From Malaciobacter molluscorum LMG 25693 (GTDB lineage: Bacteria; Campylobacterota; Campylobacteria; Campylobacterales; Arcobacteraceae), in the NCBI RefSeq assembly GCF_003544935.1, contig NZ_CP032098.1, positions 992,001 through 1,056,000 of the forward strand: DNA of 64,000 nt. Reading direction: 5' to 3'. Below the pieces are notes generated by a model. The model had not been told where the DNA came from. It was given only the letters and a program-made list of their open reading frames with translations, and did no database searches. Positions 1,052 through 20,803 of this stretch are shown piece after piece. The stretch's first letter is position 1, and each line of letters starts with the position of its first letter. Both the position numbers and the translations under genes were made by a program.

Positions 1052-3013
1052 ATGACACAAGTATATTTTTTATATTTTATTGGCTGTGTTATCTCTTTAT
1101 TATTATATAAACAAAATAGAATTGCTGCAAAAGTTGGATTTTCAATCTCTGCAATTGCTTCTGCGTATGGAGTTTTATATTTTCTAATAAACATAGGTGA
1201 AAGCTCAAGTCTTTCTATGTTTGAAAGTTTATTGTATAGTCCAAAACTTACTTTAAATCCCTTAGGAAATTTTTTCTCATTTATTGTTTCACTTATAGCA
1301 TTTGCATCTTCAGTATATGCAATTCAATATACTCAAGAGTATGAAAAAAAAGGAAGTCTTGCTGTTATGGCAGCTATGTTTAATGGCTTTATTTTATCAA
1401 TGCTTTTATTAATTGCATCATCAGATGTATTTTGGTTTATAATTTATTGGGAATGTATGACACTTATTTCTGCATATTTAATCTGTTTTAATGACTCAAA
1501 AGAGTCGTTAAAGGCAATTATGATTTATTTAGGAATTGCTCATCTTGGTGCTATGTGTATAACTGCAGCATTTTTACTTTTATCTTCTCAAAGTGGATCT
1601 TTAGAGTTTAGTTCATTTGAACATATTACTTTAACTCCAGTAAAAGCAAGTGTGATTTTTATATTAGCTTTTATAGGTTTTGGTTCAAAAGCAGGAATGT
1701 TTCCTATGCATGTTTGGTTACCAAAAGCTCACCCAGCAGCTCCAACAAATGTATCTGCTCTTATGAGTGGGGTTATGATAAAAGTAGCATTATTTGGAAT
1801 TATAAAATTTTGTTTATGGCTTCCTGTAATGAAATGGTGGGGATTATTAATTATAGTAATTGGAGCATTATCTGCTTTATTAGGAGTGTTATATGCTTTA
1901 GTTCAACATGATTATAAAGCACTGTTAGCTTATCACTCTGTTGAGAATATTGGAATTATTCTTTTAGGTTTAGGAACAGGAGTTTATGGAATTGCTGCAC
2001 ATATGCCTACATTAGCTGCAATTGGATTTTTAGCAGGTATGTATCATATTTTAAATCATGCAACTTTTAAAGGGTTGCTATTTTTAGGTGCAGGAAGTGT
2101 TCTTTATACAACTCATACAAAACAAATGGATGTTTTAGGTGGACTTGCTAGAAAAATGCCATTAACTGCATTTGCTTTTTTAATTGGATCTTTATCTATT
2201 ACTGCAATACCTCCTTTAAATGGATTTATTAGCGAGTGGGTTACTTATCAAGGTATGATTCAAGGTGCATTATCTGAATATATGAGTAGTAGAATGATTT
2301 TTGTAATTGCTGTAATAGCTTTAGCTTTAACAGGAGCTTTGGCAATCATGTGTTTTGTAAAAGTTTATTCAGTTATTTTTGGTGGTACACCAAGAGATGA
2401 AAAAATTTTTAATAAAGCTAAAGAGGTACCTTTTACTATGGTTTTAGGTATGTTTATTCTTGTTACTGGATGTTTAGCATTTGGTTTAGGTGCAAATGTA
2501 GTAGTGGAAAATATAATGTTAGTTATATCTTCTTTTTCTGAACCTTATGTAGCTACTAATAGTACAGTAATAACTTCACCTATTGGTTCAATGGTTTCTC
2601 CATTATTAATATTAATAGTATTAGCAATTAGTTTATTAATACCAATATTAATAGTTAAATTATTAAATGCTAATAGAACTAAACCAAGACAAACTGATCC
2701 ATGGGCTTGTGGTTTTAAATACAACAGTAGAATGCAAATGACTGCTTCACCTTTTACAGGAGATTTAAGAAGACTTCTAAATTGGTTATACAAAAGTGAA
2801 ACAAAAGTTGTTGATCAAGGTTATTTTAAACCTGTTGTTTATAAAACACATGCAAAAGATGTATGGTGGGATTTATTATATGCCCCAATAATTAACTTGA
2901 CAACAAAAAGTGCAAAGCTTATTTCAAAAATGCAAAATGGAAATGTTAATTCGTATTCATTATATATTTTAATAGCACTTTGCTTATTTGTTGGTATAAG
3001 TTCCGTTATTTAA
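1052..3013 (+). CDS. hyfB: HyfB, antiporter-like membrane subunit of hydrogenase-4
   Basis: A 653-residue polytopic membrane protein of the NuoL/Mrp antiporter family (proton_antipo_M), with hydrophobic segments from the N terminus to the end. The conserved core around residues 210-235 (FGSKAGMFPMHVWLPKAHPAA) carries the lysine and histidine residues of the ion channel, and Q-H-D-Y-K-A-L-L-A-Y-H near 286-296 is also typical. It should couple hydrogen evolution to ion movement. The C-terminal extension with a soluble loop matches HyfB/HycC length. It is the first of two such subunits in this operon. Confidence 0.94.
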   Translation: MTQVYFLYFIGCVISLLLYKQNRIAAKVGFSISAIASAYGVLYFLINIGESSSLSMFESLLYSPKLTLNPLGNFFSFIVSLIAFASSVYAIQYTQEYEKKGSLAVMAAMFNGFILSMLLLIASSDVFWFIIYWECMTLISAYLICFNDSKESLKAIMIYLGIAHLGAMCITAAFLLLSSQSGSLEFSSFEHITLTPVKASVIFILAFIGFGSKAGMFPMHVWLPKAHPAAPTNVSALMSGVMIKVALFGIIKFCLWLPVMKWWGLLIIVIGALSALLGVLYALVQHDYKALLAYHSVENIGIILLGLGTGVYGIAAHMPTLAAIGFLAGMYHILNHATFKGLLFLGAGSVLYTTHTKQMDVLGGLARKMPLTAFAFLIGSLSITAIPPLNGFISEWVTYQGMIQGALSEYMSSRMIFVIAVIALALTGALAIMCFVKVYSVIFGGTPRDEKIFNKAKEVPFTMVLGMFILVTGCLAFGLGANVVVENIMLVISSFSEPYVATNSTVITSPIGSMVSPLLILIVLAISLLIPILIVKLLNANRTKPRQTDPWACGFKYNSRMQMTASPFTGDLRRLLNWLYKSETKVVDQGYFKPVVYKTHAKDVWWDLLYAPIINLTTKSAKLISKMQNGNVNSYSLYILIALCLFVGISSVI

Positions 3014-3023
3014 AGGATTTGCG

Positions 3024-3947
3024 ATGAGTAGTATATTTTTTATGATATTACAAGTTATTGCAATTATTCTTGTGGCTCCTTTATTTGATGGAATGGCAAG
3101 AAAATTAAGAGCAAAACTTCAATCACGTGAAGGAATTCCTGATTTCTTTCAAACATATAGAGATATATTTAAATTGATGAAAAGAGCAAGAACTGCACCT
3201 AATTGTGCCCATTGGGTATTTAAAACTGGACCATTTACTATTTTTGCAGCAGGAGCTGCACTATTAGCTGCCATACCTATTACATATAGTACAAACAGTT
3301 TTGCAGGAGCTTATTCTGATATTTTAGTATTTATTTATATAGGAGCACTTTTAAGATTTATTTTTGGTGCAACTTCAATTGATTCAGGAAACCCTTTTGC
3401 AGGTGTTGGTGGAGGAAGAGAACAAATAATTGGTATTTTTGTTGAACCTGTACTTATGATTAGTTTATTAGTTGTTATTTTATTAGCAAAAACAACTAAT
3501 TTAGTTGAAATTCAACACTTAGTAAGAGTAGGGGAAATTGGATATCAAACTCCTGCATTTGCAATTGCTTCAATCTCTTTTCTTTGGGCAATGTATGTTG
3601 AAGCTGGAAGAAATCCATATGATTTAGCAGAAGCAGAACAAGAGTTACAAGAAGGTGTTCTAGGTGAATATTCAGGTTCAGACTTTTCATTGGCACATGC
3701 AGCTTTAATTTTAAAACAGTTTGCAATGATTGGGTTATTTTTAACTATTTTTGAACCTTGGAATTTTGAAAATCCAATATTAGCTTTGATTGTTTTTATA
3801 TTAAAAGCTGGAATATTTTATGTAGCTGCTGTATTTATTGATAATTTTGGACCTAGATTTAAAATATTAACAAGTTTTAAAAATAGTGCTATACCTCCAT
3901 TAATAGTATCAATTATTGCATTAGTTTTATATGTGGTAGGAGTTTAA
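3024..3947 (+). CDS. hyfC: HyfC, NuoH-like membrane anchor subunit
   Basis: A 307-residue membrane protein of the NuoH/HycD family, which anchors the soluble hydrogenase arm. The loop segments LRAKLQSREGIPDFFQTYRD near residue 30 and the acidic YVEAGRNPYDLAEAEQEL near residue 195 are hallmarks of the family and form the interface with the large subunit and the ion path. It starts 10 bp after hyfB. The following gene starts 1 bp after its stop and is hyfE, not hyfD as in E. coli. Confidence 0.94.
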   Translation: MSSIFFMILQVIAIILVAPLFDGMARKLRAKLQSREGIPDFFQTYRDIFKLMKRARTAPNCAHWVFKTGPFTIFAAGAALLAAIPITYSTNSFAGAYSDILVFIYIGALLRFIFGATSIDSGNPFAGVGGGREQIIGIFVEPVLMISLLVVILLAKTTNLVEIQHLVRVGEIGYQTPAFAIASISFLWAMYVEAGRNPYDLAEAEQELQEGVLGEYSGSDFSLAHAALILKQFAMIGLFLTIFEPWNFENPILALIVFILKAGIFYVAAVFIDNFGPRFKILTSFKNSAIPPLIVSIIALVLYVVGV

Positions 3948-4599: not shown

Positions 4600-6084
4600 A
4601 TGGAAATTCAAGAATTATTAATTATATTAATGCTTATTCCTTTTGTAGCATCAATTATTATTTGGTTTGCCCCAAATAACTATAAAGTATTAAGTATTCT
4701 TCATGTGCTAGGAGCAATTTTAAATGCAGTTGTAGGATTAAGTATAGTATCAAGTGTAATAAATGGACAAACATATTTTGTTTTTAATGATATGTTTTTT
4801 ATAGATTCATTAGGTGCTGTATTTATTAGTCTTATTTCAGTTACTGGCTTATTAGTAAATTTATATTCAGTTAAATATATGCAATGGGAATTAGATCATA
4901 AACATTTAGAAGTTAAAGATACAAAACTATTCTTTAGTTTGTTTCATCTTTTTGTTTTTACAATGACTTTTTCTGTATTAGCTAATAATATTGCATTAAT
5001 GTGGGTTGGAATTGAAGCTACAACATTATCTTCTGTATTTATGGTTGCGTTAAATAAAAATAAAAAATCAACTGAGACTGGGTGGAAATATATTGTTATT
5101 TGTAGTATTGGTTTAGCATTTGCTTTATATGCAACAGTTTTACTTTATAGTGCAGGTTTTAATGTAATTCATGATAGCCATAGTGCAATGTTATGGACAA
5201 CATTAATTGCACATGCAAAAGATATTGATCAATATGCATTAAAACTTATATTTATTTTTGCATTAATTGGTTTTGGTACAAAAGCAGGACTTGCACCAAC
5301 TCATACTTGGTTGCCAGATGTTCACTCTGAAGGACCAGCACCATCTTCAGCTATGCTTTCAGGAATACTTTTAAAATGTGCAATTTTAGGACTTATTAGA
5401 TATTACGCTGTTACAGGTAATTCACTTGCAGGATTTGAATATGTACAATCTTTGATGATTATAAGTGGTCTTATAACTATTTTTATTGCATCATTTTTCT
5501 TGCTTGTTCAACACGATGTAAAAAGAATGTTTGCATATCACTCAATTGCACATATGGGTGTAATTGCTTTTGGTTTGGGTGTTGGTGGACCAATAGGTCT
5601 TTTTGCAGCACTTTTTCATGCTTTAGCACACTCAGTAACAAAAGCTTTGGCTTTTTGTGTTACTGGAAATATGATTCAAGTATATGGAACAAGAGATATG
5701 ACAAAAATGGGTGGTTTAATTAAAATAGCTCCTATTACTGCAATACTATTTGGTATTGCTGTTTGTTCTCTTGTTGGGGTACCTGGCTTTGCAATATTTG
5801 TAAGTGAGTTTTTGATGATTAAACAATCAATTATTGGTAATTTAAATATTGAAGTTACACTATTTATTATTGGTTTGATTATTATTTTTATTGCAGACTT
5901 TTCTCACTTTAATCTTGCAACATTTGGTGAAAGTAGATCAAAAGTATTAACAAATGAGTTGCCATTAAGTGCAAACTTACCATTAATTGGTCTAGCTGCA
6001 TTAATTTTAATCTTTGGATTGTTTACAGTTAGTCCTTGGGTTACATTACTTAAAAATGCAGTAAATATTATTATAGGAATATAA
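4600..6084 (+). CDS. hyfF: HyfF, second antiporter-like membrane subunit
   Basis: A 494-residue polytopic protein of the NuoN/NuoM/antiporter family. The core motif FGTKAGLAPTHTWLPDVHSE near residues 225-245 and QHDVKRMFAYHSIAHMG near 305-321 match HyfF. It probably forms a second ion channel next to HyfB. Length is close to E. coli HyfF. It starts 3 bp after hyfE and ends 11 bp before hyfG. Confidence 0.93.
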   Translation: MEIQELLIILMLIPFVASIIIWFAPNNYKVLSILHVLGAILNAVVGLSIVSSVINGQTYFVFNDMFFIDSLGAVFISLISVTGLLVNLYSVKYMQWELDHKHLEVKDTKLFFSLFHLFVFTMTFSVLANNIALMWVGIEATTLSSVFMVALNKNKKSTETGWKYIVICSIGLAFALYATVLLYSAGFNVIHDSHSAMLWTTLIAHAKDIDQYALKLIFIFALIGFGTKAGLAPTHTWLPDVHSEGPAPSSAMLSGILLKCAILGLIRYYAVTGNSLAGFEYVQSLMIISGLITIFIASFFLLVQHDVKRMFAYHSIAHMGVIAFGLGVGGPIGLFAALFHALAHSVTKALAFCVTGNMIQVYGTRDMTKMGGLIKIAPITAILFGIAVCSLVGVPGFAIFVSEFLMIKQSIIGNLNIEVTLFIIGLIIIFIADFSHFNLATFGESRSKVLTNELPLSANLPLIGLAALILIFGLFTVSPWVTLLKNAVNIIIGI

Positions 6085-10887: not shown

Positions 10888-13137
10888 ATGAAAGAAACAA
10901 ATGTTATTTGTCCTTATTGTGGGACAGGTTGCGGAATAAAATTAACTTCGCATGATAATAAAATAGTAAAAGTTACAGGTATCAAAGAAAATCCAGTGAA
11001 CGAAGGGCATTTATGTCTAAAAGGTTTATATGGATGGGATTATGTTGAATCAAAAGATAGATTAACAAAACCTCTAATTAGAAAAAAAGATGGTGTTTTT
11101 TCAAAAGAGGGAACTTTTGAAGAATCATCATGGGATGAAGCATTATCATTAGTTGTATCAAAAATGAAAGAAGCTAAAGAAGCATACGGACCAGATTCTA
11201 TTGTTGGGAACTTTTCTGCAAGATGTACTTTGGAAGAAAATTATTTAGCACAAAAATTCATGAGAGCAATTATTGGTACAAATAATGTTGATCACTGCGC
11301 AAGAGTTTGTCATGCACCAACAGTAGCCGGTCTGGCTAAAACAATTGGTAATGGTACAGCAACAAACAGTTTTACTGAATTTGAAGAACATACAAATTGT
11401 ATTATGATGATAGGTTCAAATCCAGAAAATGCACACCCAATTGCGGCTATGTATATACAAAGAGCTCTTAATAGAGGAGCAAAACTAATTGTAATTGACC
11501 CTATAAAAACTGAATTTGCACAAAAAGCAGATGTTCATATTCAACTTCCAGCTGAATATAATATTCCAATTATAAATGCATTAATTAATCATATAATTGC
11601 AAAAAATTTATATGATAAAGAGTTTGTAGAAAATTATACACATGGCTTTGAATATTTAAAAGAAGCTGTAAAAGAATATACTCCACAAAAAGTTTCTGAA
11701 ATGACAGGCGTTGATGCTTCTTTATTAATTAAAGCAGCAGAACTTTATGCTACAACAAGTCCTGCAGCAATTACTCATGGTATGGGAGTTACTCACTTCA
11801 ATCATGGTGTTGGTAATGTTTGCGATATTTCAAATATTATGTTAATAACTGGAAATATTGGTAAAGTTGGAGCTGGTGACTTACCATTAAGAGGTCAACA
11901 AAATGTACAAGGTGCCTGTGATATGGGTGTATTACCAAATATTTTTCCAAACTTAAAACTTGTTTCAAGTGCAGAAGATAAAGCATTTTTTGAAAAGTTA
12001 TGGGATTGTAAACAACCTTTAAGTACTGAAATTGGGATTCATAAAACAGAAGTACCTGATGCAATTATGGATGGAAGAGTAAAAGTATTTTATACAATAG
12101 GTGAAAATCCAGTTATGTCTGAACCAAATACAAATCACTTCTTAAAAGGTATATCAAAACTTGATTTTTATGTTGTTCAAGATATCTTTATGACAGAAAC
12201 TGCACTAAAAGCTGATGTTGTTTTACCAGCAGTTAGTGTTGGTGAAAAACAAGGATGTTATTTAAATGCTGAAAGAAGAGTGCAATTAAATGATAAAACT
12301 TTAGATCCAAAAGGTGAAGCTAAACAAGATTGGCAAATAATTTGTGAACTTGCAAAAAGATTTGGTGCAACTGATTTTAATTATGAAACACCTGAAGAAA
12401 TTTGGAATGAAGTAAGAGAAGCTGATCCAAGAAGATTTGGAGGAATTACTTATAAAAGGTTAAGAGAATTACCTGGTATTGCATGGCCTTGTCCTGATGA
12501 AAATCATCCTGGAACACCAAGTTTATATATGGATAAAAAGTTTTTTACAAAAGATAAAAAAGCAAATTTGGTACCTGTAATTTTTATTGATAATAAAGAT
12601 AATACAGCACAAGCAGAAGAAGATCTAAGAAAAGAGCTTAATATTCCAGAAAATTATCCTTGTATGGTAGGTTCTGTGGATGAAAAAATAGATGAAAAAT
12701 ATCCTATTTCTTTATTGACAACAAGAAAAGTTTATCAATATACAGTAGGAACAATGACAAGACGATCAAAAGCTCTTGAACAAGGTGGTGATTCACATGG
12801 ACCATCAGCAGAGATACATCCAGATTTAGCAAAAAGATATAATCTTAAAAATCATGACTTTATAAAAGTTGAGAGTAGATATGGATATATTGCAGTTTTA
12901 GTAGAAGTAACTGAAGTGGTTCCTGATAATACTATGCAAATGGCTTTTCACTATTGGGAAGGATTATGTAATGAATTGACAAGTGGTGGTTGGGATTATA
13001 TAACAAAAACTCCAACTTATAAAGCAGCAGTAAGAATGGAAAAAATTACTCAAGAAGAGTACAGTGATATTGTTACTCTTAAAAAAATGAAATTCAAAAC
13101 TTCAAAAATAATTTATGATGATTATCATCACGCTTAA
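10888..13137 (+). CDS. fdhF: Formate dehydrogenase H-type catalytic subunit, Cys form
   Basis: A 749-residue molybdenum or tungsten bis-MGD enzyme that oxidises formate to CO2 and feeds electrons to the hydrogenase. An N-terminal [4Fe-4S] motif is seen (C8, C11, C15, C43). The active-site segment HCARVCHAPTVAGL places Cys141 (codon TGT, 11308-11310) at the position of Sec140 in E. coli FdhF, followed by the conserved histidine. There is no in-frame TGA. The C-terminal molydopterin-binding domain is intact. There is no twin-arginine signal, so it is cytoplasmic, in line with a hydrogenlyase role. It is the last gene before a terminator. Confidence 0.95.
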   Translation: MKETNVICPYCGTGCGIKLTSHDNKIVKVTGIKENPVNEGHLCLKGLYGWDYVESKDRLTKPLIRKKDGVFSKEGTFEESSWDEALSLVVSKMKEAKEAYGPDSIVGNFSARCTLEENYLAQKFMRAIIGTNNVDHCARVCHAPTVAGLAKTIGNGTATNSFTEFEEHTNCIMMIGSNPENAHPIAAMYIQRALNRGAKLIVIDPIKTEFAQKADVHIQLPAEYNIPIINALINHIIAKNLYDKEFVENYTHGFEYLKEAVKEYTPQKVSEMTGVDASLLIKAAELYATTSPAAITHGMGVTHFNHGVGNVCDISNIMLITGNIGKVGAGDLPLRGQQNVQGACDMGVLPNIFPNLKLVSSAEDKAFFEKLWDCKQPLSTEIGIHKTEVPDAIMDGRVKVFYTIGENPVMSEPNTNHFLKGISKLDFYVVQDIFMTETALKADVVLPAVSVGEKQGCYLNAERRVQLNDKTLDPKGEAKQDWQIICELAKRFGATDFNYETPEEIWNEVREADPRRFGGITYKRLRELPGIAWPCPDENHPGTPSLYMDKKFFTKDKKANLVPVIFIDNKDNTAQAEEDLRKELNIPENYPCMVGSVDEKIDEKYPISLLTTRKVYQYTVGTMTRRSKALEQGGDSHGPSAEIHPDLAKRYNLKNHDFIKVESRYGYIAVLVEVTEVVPDNTMQMAFHYWEGLCNELTSGGWDYITKTPTYKAAVRMEKITQEEYSDIVTLKKMKFKTSKIIYDDYHHA

Positions 13138-13277: not shown

Positions 13278-13622
13278 ATGCAAAATACATTAAATAAAAC
13301 TGTTTTTATAAAATCAGATAAAATTGGTGAGGGTGAATTAGGTTTAATGCTTACAAAAGGTTTTTTAACTGCAATGAGTCAACAAGAAAACTTACCAGAA
13401 CAAATTATTCTTGTAAATAGTGCAATTTTACTAGCAACAGCAAATGAAAATGATGAAGTTTTAGCAATACTAAAAGATTTAGAAAAAAAAGGTGTAGAGA
13501 TTTATTCTTGTGGAACTTGTTTAGATTTTTATGTAAAAAGAGATGATTTAAAAGTTGGAAAAGCAGGTAATGCAAACGATATTATAAATGCACTTTTAAA
13601 TACAAATACTGTTAGTTTGTAA
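13278..13622 (+). CDS. yedF: YedF-like DsrE-family protein
   Basis: A 114-residue protein matching the C-terminal DsrE-like half of YedF, a family linked to selenium metabolism. Recognisable parts are GEGELGLMLTKGF near residue 18, the EILVNSAI-type strand near 42 and SCGTCLDFY near 78, whose two cysteines are typical of YedF. The N-terminal TusA/SirA-like domain of full-length YedF is absent. It lies 140 bp after fdhF, beyond a terminator, with its own putative -10 (TATACAAT near 13193), so it is likely a separate unit. Its true role, selenium or sulfur handling, is not shown by the sequence. Confidence 0.75.
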   Translation: MQNTLNKTVFIKSDKIGEGELGLMLTKGFLTAMSQQENLPEQIILVNSAILLATANENDEVLAILKDLEKKGVEIYSCGTCLDFYVKRDDLKVGKAGNANDIINALLNTNTVSL

Positions 13623-18303: not shown

Positions 18304-18384
18304 TTATGCTTTTATTAATTTTATTAACATAATAAATGTCAATAAAACTAAAATACCTAGCATAATATAGTTTGTTATTGACAT
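18304..18384 (-). CDS. KdpF-like 26-residue membrane peptide
   Basis: A short reading frame of 26 codons, preceded by AAGGAATAAT as ribosome binding site, and ending 5 bp before the kdpD-like start. The peptide is one hydrophobic helix (residues 5-21: NYIMLGILVLLTFIMLI) with a basic C-terminal end. Size, topology and position next to Kdp-type genes resemble KdpF, the single-span stabiliser of KdpFABC. No KdpA/B/C is encoded here, so a role with the TrkH channel or the kinase is only an inference. It could be non-functional, but the RBS and spacing argue otherwise. Confidence 0.55.
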   Translation of the reverse strand: MSITNYIMLGILVLLTFIMLIKLIKA

Positions 18385-18480: not shown

Positions 18481-19236
18481 TTAATCAAATACTTCATATC
18501 CTGCACATGCTGCACCAATTGCACCAATTAATTGAGGATGTTTTGCTGGTTGGATATTTTTTTGTAATTTTTTTGATAATAGATGTATTAAAAATGGATT
18601 TAATGCACCACCACCAGTAAAAATTATATTTTCACTATTTATTGCAAATTTTTTTGCCATAGAAGCAAGTCTTGAAGCAATTGAATCATGAACGGCATAA
18701 CAAATATTTGCAGCTGATTCTTTTTTGGCTATTAATGAAATTACTTCTGATTCTGCAAAAACTGCACACATACTTGAAATTGATAACTCTTTAGTAGCTT
18801 CAAAACCAATTTTAGAAAATTCTTGCATCTTTAATCCCATTCTATTTGATGCAATTTCTAAAAATCTACCTGTTCCTGCTGCACATTTATCATTCATTTT
18901 AAAATCTGTAAAACCACCGGATAAATCTAGTTTTATTATTTTACTATCTTGTCCACCCAAATCTATTACCATATCAGAACTATTTAAAAAATTATAAGCA
19001 CCTTTAGCATGAGCATTAATTTCGCTTATAACAGGACAAGAAAAAACCTCTTCAATCATATGTCTGCCATATCCTGTTGATACTAACATTTTGATTTGTT
19101 TACCTTTTAAATAATCTTTTACAATTTCATCTTGATTTACAATTGTTGGTATTACTTGTGTATCTATAATATTTCTATTTTCATCTAGTCCACATATTTT
19201 AGTATATGTGGACCCTACATCAACTCCCCAAAACAT
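18481..19236 (-). CDS. HgdC-family ATPase activator (reductase of a double-cubane or dehydratase protein)
   Basis: A 251-residue ASKHA-fold ATPase of the BadF/BadG/HgdC family. The phosphate motif GVDVGSTYTK is at 4-13 and DLGGQDSK at 92-99. C118 (KCAAGTGRF) and C157 (SSMCAVF) are 39 residues apart, as in HgdC, and bind one [4Fe-4S] cluster at the dimer interface. It injects low-potential electrons into its partner at the cost of ATP. The partner gene ends directly before its ATG. E. coli YjiL belongs to the same family. Confidence 0.88.
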   Translation of the reverse strand: MFWGVDVGSTYTKICGLDENRNIIDTQVIPTIVNQDEIVKDYLKGKQIKMLVSTGYGRHMIEEVFSCPVISEINAHAKGAYNFLNSSDMVIDLGGQDSKIIKLDLSGGFTDFKMNDKCAAGTGRFLEIASNRMGLKMQEFSKIGFEATKELSISSMCAVFAESEVISLIAKKESAANICYAVHDSIASRLASMAKKFAINSENIIFTGGGALNPFLIHLLSKKLQKNIQPAKHPQLIGAIGAACAGYEVFD

Positions 19237-20565
19237 CTATTTTTCTTGGTTCTGTTTAAATTGTTTAGCTTTATTTTTAAAACTTATACTTTCTAAAAAG
19301 GCTTCAACTCTTGTTTTTATTTGTCCTGCATCTTCAGGTGAATAATCTGATTCTATAACTAAGCATGGAATACCTTCATTTTCTAAAGCTTGAGTTACTA
19401 AATGAGCTTCAACATTATATGTATGACAAAAAGATAATGTATAGTATATAACTCCATCTAATTTTCTATCTTTATACATTTTTAGAACTTTATCAATTCT
19501 TGGTGCATTTGGAGTAAAACAAGCACAATCAACCGCACTATATTTATCTAGTAACTTTTGCATTAATGTATCTTCATCTTGAACATTATCTAAATCTACA
19601 TTATCTTTATAATATCTGTGTCCTATACAAGACTCTTCATTTACTATTGCTCCACCACTTGTTTCAACAGCAGTATGAAGTTTCCAATTTGGTGGTGCAA
19701 AAGGAGTTCCTAATACCATAAGTCTAGGAGTCTGTTTTTCAAATACACTTATTTTATCTTCTACTCTTTTTTCTAATTCATCACATAATTCATTTACTTT
19801 TTGTGTATATCTAATAGGATCATCTAAAAATCCCATTTGTGTGATAAATAATCCATCTTTTCCACTAATAGGAATAATATCAGGATTCATGCTTCTTAAT
19901 CTATCTAATCTTTGTAAAGCTTCTCTTTTTGCATTTACTATTTTTACTCCTTCTTTCATCTGTTCTAATGAAAGCTTTTCTTCTGTAATTTCTTCTAAAT
20001 GTTCTTTAAATTCAACTAACTCTTCTTTCCATAATTTTAAATCTTTTTCTCTTTTCATATGAGGAATATTCATAACTTTTACAGGATGATGTTTACCTAA
20101 AATTTCCCATGTTTTCTTTTTTGCTTCACATGTAGTTTCACCATAAATAAAATCAGAAGATTGTGTATAAGCACATGTTTTTTGAAGTTTAAATCCATGA
20201 GCTGATTTTATTAAAGGACATATATTTCTAGGTAGTTCAGTTTCAGCATCTGCAATTGTTGCTGGGCTTCCTCCACAAAGTCCAAAACATGCTCCTCCTG
20301 CTGCAACTATTAACTCTTCTGGAACAAATATACAAAAAGCACCAATTGCTGGTTTTTTATTTTCTCTTAATTTATTTATTTCAGCAATTCTTTGCCCTTG
20401 CATTTCACTCATAAACCAATTGAAATATTTCATTGCTTCTGGTCTATTTTCTTGACTCATAAATTGATTTTTATATGATTCAAATCCCATTTCCATCATC
20501 TTAGCATGTCTTGGTACATCTACGCCAAGTTTTTCTAGTAGATCTTTATGTTCATGTACACCCAT
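19237..20565 (-). CDS. HgdB-like protein, probable double-cubane cluster protein
   Basis: A 442-residue protein of the 2-hydroxyacyl-CoA dehydratase D-component family. Cysteines that can carry iron-sulfur clusters lie in GGACFGLCGG (C93, C97), RNICPL (C116), C131, C146, ESCIGH, DCACF and SFCHTYN. Classical dehydratases need two such subunits; only one is present next to the activator, which is the arrangement of the double-cubane [8Fe-9S] cluster protein and of E. coli YjiM/YjiL. The physiological substrate is unknown. A divergent AraC regulator stands 238 bp upstream. Confidence 0.82.
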   Translation of the reverse strand: MGVHEHKDLLEKLGVDVPRHAKMMEMGFESYKNQFMSQENRPEAMKYFNWFMSEMQGQRIAEINKLRENKKPAIGAFCIFVPEELIVAAGGACFGLCGGSPATIADAETELPRNICPLIKSAHGFKLQKTCAYTQSSDFIYGETTCEAKKKTWEILGKHHPVKVMNIPHMKREKDLKLWKEELVEFKEHLEEITEEKLSLEQMKEGVKIVNAKREALQRLDRLRSMNPDIIPISGKDGLFITQMGFLDDPIRYTQKVNELCDELEKRVEDKISVFEKQTPRLMVLGTPFAPPNWKLHTAVETSGGAIVNEESCIGHRYYKDNVDLDNVQDEDTLMQKLLDKYSAVDCACFTPNAPRIDKVLKMYKDRKLDGVIYYTLSFCHTYNVEAHLVTQALENEGIPCLVIESDYSPEDAGQIKTRVEAFLESISFKNKAKQFKQNQEK

Positions 20566-20803
20566 AATAATTACCTTTGATTGTTGCTGTTTAAAATTAG
20601 AATTTACATGTATAAAAAAGCTTTATTTGAGAATAAATGAGATGCTTTAACATGATTGTCTAATCCATAGACCTAATATACAGCTTAGCTTATAATTATA
20701 ATATAATTTAATTAATTAAGTATTAAATAATATAAGAAAAATAAATATATTAAATAGCAATTTTTTTCTATTTTTCTATTTTATTTTTAGTTATAATTGA
20801 AAG
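20566..20803. promoter_or_regulatory. Divergent intergenic region
   Basis: This 238-bp gap separates the HgdB-like gene (minus) from an AraC-family gene (plus), so it must contain both promoters. A short dyad GTCTA-N5-TAGAC lies at 20658-20672. The rest is highly AT-rich; no regulator site could be named. Confidence 0.35.

Follow-up and report, generated by a model that had tools for sequence, protein, structure and literature searches.

The closest described relatives of the gene pair examined here are a double-cubane cluster protein (DCCP) and its ATP-dependent activator (DCCP reductase, DCCP-R), solved as 6eno, 7yyl, 7yzm and 7yzq from Carboxydothermus hydrogenoformans (named in PMC7306483). 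In the passages available from PMC11971306 the biological function of DCCP is stated as unknown, and BzdN, a benzoyl-CoA reductase subunit, is also said to hold a double cubane. A selenium context has been hinted at in two sources: Table 1 of Lin et al. 2015 (PMC5322559) places a 2-hydroxyglutaryl-CoA dehydratase subunit and its activase near YedE/YedF/DUF3343 in Slackia, and a 2023 preprint (PMC10418091) calls DCCP provisionally linked to selenium. Within the passages of the open-licence literature that were available, no statement was found of the DCCP reaction, of a selenium association in Campylobacterota or of a leader RNA, and two riboswitch reviews contained no word starting with 'selen'. 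The provisional DCCP-selenium link is already in print; the Campylobacterota association and the leader RNA are new. Here we describe a DCCP gene (dccp), its activator gene and an RNA leader in a 64,000-nucleotide stretch of Malaciobacter molluscorum LMG 25693 (the window; NZ_CP032098.1, positions 992,001 to 1,056,000). With moderate confidence we read the pair as orthologous to DCCP/DCCP-R, the DCCP as an ATP-driven reductase supplying reduced selenium (selenide) to SelD, and the leader as selenium-linked. To our knowledge, how cells make selenide and deliver it to SelD is unsettled.

The dccp gene (19237-20565, minus strand; 442 aa, P0001) and the activator gene (18481-19236, minus strand; 251 aa, P0002) are abutting open reading frames (ORFs), as an earlier sequence-only reading of this DNA had described. 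P0001 contains 12 cysteines and matched Pfam HGD-D (PF06050) with 386.7 bits, in agreement with the HgdB-like, cysteine-rich protein of that reading. It scored 450.3 bits against the NCBIfam equivalog NF040772, 'double-cubane-cluster-containing anaerobic reductase' (cut-off 350). The nearest solved protein by sequence was the DCCP of 7yyl (E 3.9e-131), with HadC, BzdN and MbdN far behind, and the closest solved structures were 7yyl, 6eno and 7yzm. P0002 matched BcrAD_BadFG (PF01869; 166.5 bits), TIGR00241 (acyl-CoA dehydratase activase; 223.5 bits, cut-off 125.4) and the PDB entries 9gai_D, 4eht, 1hux and 7yyl_E. Its cysteines C118 and C157, at exactly the positions named in that reading for its HgdC-like ATPase, correspond to the conserved pair of HgdC-type activators, which are ASKHA ATPases whose dimer would share a [4Fe-4S] cluster between these cysteines. 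The whole genome (one contig of 2,800,582 bases) holds a single PF06050 match, dccp, and a single PF01869 match over the cut-off, the activator; one other PF01869 match reached only 20.1 bits, below the cut-off. An acyl-CoA dehydratase or class I benzoyl-CoA reductase was ruled out because two different HGD-D subunits are needed and the genome has one, which extends to the whole genome the earlier remark that a second dehydratase subunit is lacking; dehydratase and benzoyl-CoA reductase models gave 67-107 bits on P0001 (cut-offs 421-700). The nearest dccp in named genomes was that of Arcobacter sp. CECT 8985 (96%), and one genome of our set, G003, belongs to the same genus as the window genome.

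A FastTree tree separated DCCPs into three groups, each with support of 1.0: group A (window type; 55 leaves), in which P0001 groups with the solved DCCP, group B (YjiM type; 16 leaves), which contains E. coli YjiM, and group C (23 leaves), which stands apart. An AlphaFold2 model of P0001 made from 25 sequences (mean pLDDT 91.9) aligned to 7yzm and 6eno with a TM score of 0.93 and an rmsd of 1.2, and to BzdN and HadC with a TM score of about 0.75; sequence identity to the solved DCCP was 46%. P0001 has each of the 11 cysteines that the solved DCCP shows in its aligned part, and C78, C97, C116, C146, C313, C347 and C380 occur in every row of 136 aligned DCCPs. These residues without C97 are the six presumed ligands of the [8Fe-9S] double cubane, judging from BzdN and DCCP. 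BzdN matches five of the six, its sixth cysteine lying two columns off, on C349; HadC retains cysteine at 116, 347 and 380 and has proline at 78, alanine at 313 and leucine at 146 (with a cysteine nearby). Five further cysteines of P0001 outside the presumed ligands (C93, C97, C131, C261 and C349) occur in every one of 19 group A rows. All groups share C97, and group B also has C131; C93, C261 and C349 are wholly or almost wholly missing from B and C. Both the structure comparison that the sequence-only reading had proposed and the ligand set whose lack it had named as evidence to the contrary came out on the side of its double-cubane protein with an ATP-dependent activator. Sequence, predicted fold and tree identify the pair as the DCCP/DCCP-R orthologue of a structurally known system, and as a gene pair it is of a known kind.

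The neighbours of dccp that recur over distant lineages are selenium genes. Neighbourhoods were compared in 80 fetched loci, reduced to 78 by dropping two without a complete dccp, with profiles built from the loci's own clusters and a limit of five ORFs; some organisms occur twice via two collections, and the locus counts are not independent. Within this limit SelD was found in 8 of the 78 loci, YedF in 12 (13 if a weak TusA-MerT protein is counted) and Se_S_carrier (PF11823) in 4, the last all in Clostridia or Firmicutes, so that a selD, yedF or Se_S_carrier gene lies near dccp in 16 loci of several phyla (17 with the weak TusA-MerT protein). The arrangements differ: selD, dccp-activator and yedF stand side by side in Arcobacteraceae-type loci (L105, L107 and L128) and in two loci of the phylum set (L022 and L023), the order is dccp-activator-yedF-selD in deep-sea Campylobacteraceae (L109-L111) and yedF-dccp-activator in Nautiliaceae (L136), and dccp-selD-yedF (L148) or dccp-yedF (L153 and L160) also occur. 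A scan for selenium-gene neighbours gave no match in 23 group C loci and one weak match (21 bits) in 11 group B loci. Other neighbours vary. The sole constant one is the activator (18 of 18 group A loci), which lies within five ORFs of dccp in 54 of the 78 loci, some being cut by contig ends; no other constant operon partner was found among the group A and 78-locus neighbours. In four loci of Pelotomaculum type (L167, L169, L177 and L178) the next operon behind dccp is PstS-like, and two of the four PstS-like genes, checked by model, scored 203.5 and 206.4 bits against a cut-off of 206.6.

In the window a yedF gene for a selenium metabolism protein of 114 aa, corresponding to the DsrE half only (13278-13622, plus strand), lies 5 kb from the dccp pair. 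Its product matched TIGR03527 with 124.6 bits (cut-off 110) over profile positions 84-191 of 194 and gave zero matches in a Pfam search. Both here and in L024, yedF is separated from the pair by other genes, some of which are by inspection potassium-transport genes, and in L022, L023 and L080 yedF directly follows the activator. The selD gene of the window genome lies at genome position 959255, 52 kb from dccp.

The association extends to the gene content of genomes. A survey of 397 genomes from the phylum found DCCP, whatever its group, in 85 (50 over the cut-off), SelD in 283 and YedF in 190 (168 over the cut-off). Genomes were assigned to groups A, B or C by BLAST and the tree where the locus had been fetched and otherwise by family and score, as for 11 of the 27 A-type genomes; all 27 have both SelD and YedF (lists compared by reading). 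YedF occurs in 9 of the 42 genomes of the window's family, and these include all six A-type genomes (p 1.6e-5, which, like the p values below, ignores kinship); counted by genus, YedF is found in 10 of 10 for A-type among 30 of 68 overall (p 1e-4). Group C, which sits in a TonB-type operon without a selenium tie and was therefore used as a negative control, has YedF in 4 of 27 genomes, two of which also carry A, and SelD in 16 of 27. On chromosome-size contigs the A-type dccp lies within 70 kb of selD in 12 of 14 genomes, although 8 of the 14 are one genus, as compared with none of 7 genomes for group C. In the other 13 A-type genomes the two genes are at most 61 kb apart on a shorter contig in seven, 164 kb apart in one and on different contigs in five.

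Outside the phylum, SelD is present in 42 of 46 genomes reached via dccp loci. We also sampled the class to which Clostridium thailandense belongs (196 genomes, including two previously known to carry dccp). DCCP was found in 21, of which 14 are A-type (490-560 bits) and seven have only a B-like protein (229-318 bits). SelD is present in 21 of 21 DCCP genomes versus 23 of the 175 others (44 of 196 overall; p 2e-16), and all 14 A-type genomes carry a SelD with an in-frame TGA. Three of these Clostridia have dccp within 5 kb of selD, two with a B-like gene (G533 and G633) and one with an A-type gene (G495). On this genome evidence of neighbours and SelD/YedF co-occurrence, window-type DCCP belongs, provisionally, to selenium metabolism.

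A structured leader RNA precedes dccp in the window (20584-20686, minus strand; covariance model R1 and folds). Alignment of eight group A upstream regions of the family revealed one conserved block, GGTCTAWGGNTTAGAC, followed by ACATG and lying about 90-116 nt ahead of the start codon in most loci. Helix P1 closes a junction from which P2, formed by this block, and P3 branch; in the window the P2 hairpin GTCTATGGATTAGAC (20658-20672, minus strand), identified from the upstream alignment and from covariation of P2 in relatives, is the core of the leader. A -10-like TATAAT noted by eye at 20695-20700 (minus strand) would start the transcript at about P1. R1 was built from ten seed rows with the window excluded. 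On 82 loci (1.23 Mb) it gave 41 matches at E <=0.0035, the ten seeds included, of which 37 precede dccp, three a metN-like gene and one yedF-dccp. The window leader (20587-20683, E 0.0035) is the weakest of the 41, and on the whole window genome it is the sole match (E 0.008).

Covariation was assessed in 51 matches, in an alignment that was fitted to the model and favours structure. Two-sided changes with pairing kept occurred at 17 of 18 pairs; 96 two-sided cells were counted, where shuffles gave 20.0 (sd 3.5) and slid pairings no more than 24, and 92.6% of cells were paired. P2 alone accounted for 17 two-sided cells versus 1.1, with 99.3% paired and a loop in which GG is nearly always retained. 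The arms of P1 lie some 70 nt apart and have two-sided changes in all six pairs, as seen among relatives in AUGCUG/CAGCAU, GCACGA/UCGUGC, GCACAA/UUGUGC and GUAUAG/CUAUAC. The ten-row seed had two-sided changes in 2 of 18 pairs only, and RNAalifold on the fitted alignment retained P2 only. The P1/P2/P3 shape appeared in folds of L074, L079, L104, L109 and L127 and did not form in a 99-nt piece of the window lacking the 3' arm of P1; when folded through the start codon, six of nine leaders, the window's included, formed P1, P2 and the P3 hairpin, and L117, the metN-like leader of L079 and L216 did not. For the most part the folding energies did not fall below those of shuffled sequences (six leaders, z -2.08 to -0.02). 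Rfam gave zero matches in the window region and no credible match in the leaders searched. A MIR2606 match in L079 (52.3 bits, gathering threshold 139.7) was rejected as an inverted-repeat artefact because it spans two leaders in opposite orientation, and two other matches were weak; elsewhere Rfam found one tRNA and one tRNA-Sec in ten loci and one weak CRISPR repeat match in four. The dccp leader is a conserved, covarying, structured RNA that is absent from Rfam. FNR- or sigma-54-like sites upstream of dccp were not found in a small pattern test, and translation switching through a hidden start region was set aside, free folds of the leaders revealing no common pattern.

We surveyed 80 hand-chosen genomes (36 A-type and 44 others) with R1 at E 0.05. 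Matches were obtained in 30 genomes, five of them among the 44 others; of the 36 A-type genomes, 25 have the leader ahead of dccp. No match at E <0.1 came from the group B and C loci, E. coli, the non-Campylobacterota loci searched or seven non-Campylobacterota genomes, and the leader is therefore a feature of a few families. The leader also heads other genes. It stands just before yedF in L225-L228 and in L136, with the L225 yedF leader beside tRNA-Sec; before a transglutaminase-like gene accompanied by MerT and HMA genes in L215, L216, L217, L256 and L257 (five inspected of 13 apparent sites of this kind); and before a rhodanese lipoprotein with a [4Fe-4S]/CCG protein or VTT membrane proteins in L218, L219 and, weakly, L223. 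It further precedes a PstS-like ABC operon beside an fdhF with a TGA at codon 140 (L255) and MetN/MetQ-like operons (L079, L120 and L126); the MetN, MetQ and PstS model scores at these operons are below the cut-offs. Because the leader also heads yedF and several transporter-type operons, the leader-led dccp of the window's family and of Sulfurospirillum relatives is probably switched with selenium supply, perhaps at translation. Instead of a small ligand, the leader could bind a protein, for instance SelB. In its widest form the proposal makes the leader a riboswitch of a new class, or a switch worked by a bound protein, which would sense the selenium state of the cell and govern a regulon for selenium supply. 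That regulon would comprise transporters for uptake, carrier and rhodanese proteins, yedF/selD and DCCP, with DCCP as the ATP-driven reductase making selenide for SelD; taken whole, this is tentative and rather doubtful.

Several observations concern the leaders themselves. In L225 (4715-5030) tRNA-Sec and yedF flank the leader, and an apparent second hairpin of the same core (CCTAAGGTTTAGG) lies upstream. Two Sulfurospirillum loci (L079 and L120) contain two dccp genes in tandem, each with its own leader RNA, and one activator behind them. G188 and G374 have the leader RNA and no DCCP in the phylum list of DCCPs. A TusA-MerT fusion (TusA 61.2 bits, MerT 46.2 bits) at 2981-3556 (minus strand) of L104 adjoins a 362-aa gene whose relatives follow the leader RNA, and a weak leader match lies at 4680-4750 (minus strand) of the same locus.

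The mechanism we propose would run as follows. By analogy with homologues, the activator would be reduced by ferredoxin or flavodoxin, dock on the DCCP dimer and hydrolyse ATP, pushing very-low-potential electrons into the [8Fe-9S] cluster of DCCP. DCCP would then act on a selenium species left unreduced by thiols or ferredoxin alone. Its substrate, which is a guess, is most likely selenium(0), either bound to a YedF-type or Se/S-carrier-type protein or set free from it; the resulting selenide would be turned into selenophosphate by SelD, and the leader RNA would switch dccp with selenium supply, perhaps at translation. Selenium as substrate element, selenide for SelD as product, ATP-gated electron transfer and leader control are what we infer here. 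If the scheme is true, it would give a stand-alone double-cubane enzyme its first physiological role, and the leader's other target operons would be further candidate selenium transporters and carriers. Through the cross-phylum tie and the shared leader, the function of DCCP and the supply of selenide to SelD become one testable question.

A number of findings weigh against this assignment. Within five ORFs of dccp, 62 of the 78 loci have no selenium gene; SelD is missing in 4 of the 46 dccp genomes outside the phylum; and kinship inflates the co-occurrence counts, so that the p values overstate their strength. Of the 36 A-type genomes surveyed, 11 lack the leader (G061, G262, G209, G363 and seven outside the phylum), and four weak leader matches (G307:C4, G207:C24, G374:C22 and G006) precede no selenium-type gene. 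E. coli yjiML, of group B, has no selenium gene alongside and group C shows no selenium tie at all, so the selenium link is not general to the fold. The step in which selenium(0) needs extra driving force is weak: it assumes a potential of about -0.7 V for reduction of Se(0) to selenide, a value not found in the literature searched, and a passage of PMC5187540 describes H2Se as a strong reducing agent whose potential is near that of H2.

The leading alternative has methylated selenium as the substrate. DCCP would in that case be a salvage reductase that cleaves the C-Se (or C-S) bonds of small methylated compounds to release selenide, an idea we consider unlikely. According to preprint PMC10418091, DCCP is present in many of the type 1 mlp clusters, for which that preprint argues a role in methyl-selenium handling, and the MetN/MetQ-like operons of L079, L120 and L126, whose scores are below the family cut-offs, share the leader; against it, no methyltransferase or corrinoid genes were noticed among recurrent dccp neighbours, where they were not searched for by model. 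We give a slim chance to a sulfur role, in which DCCP reduces persulfides or other sulfur species in a relay of YedF/TusA and rhodanese, for example to mature formate dehydrogenase, with selenium genes simply keeping the same company. Sulfur metabolism does also employ YedF, rhodanese and TusA-type proteins, the active site of the window FdhF has Cys rather than Sec, and the SelD of the window genome has no in-frame TGA. The tie of DCCP is, however, to SelD itself, with TGA-containing SelD in all 14 A-type genomes of the sampled Clostridia, and Se_S_carrier near dccp and the yedF leader beside tRNA-Sec likewise argue for selenium. A slimmer chance still falls to DCCP as a small-molecule reductase of general use, for detoxification or as an electron sink, coupled to formate hydrogenlyase, a link that the sequence-only reading had suggested. 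Known DCCP reduces azide, hydrazine and acetylene-like molecules in vitro (PMC11971306, available passages), and E. coli yjiM and yjiL are listed with hyc, hyp, ynjE and ydjY in one expression-change table (PMC9068703, as far as available), which, concerning group B, is only suggestive. In the window's family the window-type HycE occurs in 3 of 42 genomes (G000, G002 and G018), all of them DCCP genomes, but DCCP-A is present in six, of which G001, G023 and G400 lack window-type HycE; HycE matches were weak or none in G358, G363 and G061, and this explanation leaves the selenium tie without a cause. Selenium metabolism is the better-supported partner of DCCP, and the hydrogenlyase link did not hold up; neither did the suggestion that the pair is a source of low-potential electrons, since DCCP is expected to consume them.

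For the element before dccp, the competing account is a DNA operator for a dimeric regulator rather than an RNA, and we regard it as a minority possibility. P2 is a short dyad, and L022, L023, L080, L107 and the yedF leaders of L226-L228 keep P2 with no clear P1; the folding energies, mostly not below shuffles, and the retention of P2 only by RNAalifold point the same way. On the other side, the orientation of the element to the gene is fixed, P1 covaries in all six pairs across its distant arms with the excess of two-sided cells given above, and most of the leaders folded through the start codon form P1, P2 and P3. We retain the structured RNA as the description of the element.

Group C was dropped as a guide to function. 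Its conserved operon (L088:2682-15943, L089, L097, L093, L031 and other loci) holds the activator together with a TonB-dependent receptor, a membrane protein of DsbD_2 type and two NapH-like polyferredoxins, of which one has a DUF4198-like tail; part of the loci also contain ExbB/ExbD/TonB. Of 23 loci examined, most have polyferredoxin clusters beside dccp. The composition of the operon suggests that DCCP may be used there in the uptake of some compound. The dccp gene is decaying in part of genus g29, with remains that have in-frame stops or lie in pieces in G121, G134, G144, G160, G166, G182, G186, G280, G297, G334 and G396; such remains were also seen in G293 (g49).

Elsewhere in the window, 10888-13137 (plus strand) encodes an FdhF with Cys (VCHAPTVAGL) at the site where the L255 relative carries its in-frame TGA (codon 140), and a terminator-like hairpin lies between fdhF and yedF. 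By eye, a 26-codon ORF resembling a membrane peptide was noted at about 18304-18384 (minus strand), just before the sensor kinase of the potassium-transport block, and its appearance is KdpF-like.

Set beside the known systems, the window pair belongs to the same subfamily as the solved DCCP/DCCP-R (46% identity, TM 0.93), with the same cysteines and an adjoining activator gene; it differs from the C. hydrogenoformans DCCP in coming from another organism, in being tied to selenium genes and in being RNA-led. E. coli YjiM/YjiL is of the same family and has the same pairing with an activator, but falls in subgroup B and has no selenium gene alongside. BzdN, the benzoyl-CoA reductase subunit, and HadC, of 2-hydroxyisocaproyl-CoA dehydratase, share the fold of the window protein at a TM score of about 0.75, but belong to two-subunit CoA enzymes, and HadC lacks the cysteines at columns 78 and 313. 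The published selenium-context lists (PMC5322559 and PMC10418091), in their available passages, hold no reaction, Campylobacterota case or leader RNA, whereas the window locus adds to them a Campylobacterota pair tied to selenium genes and led by a conserved RNA.

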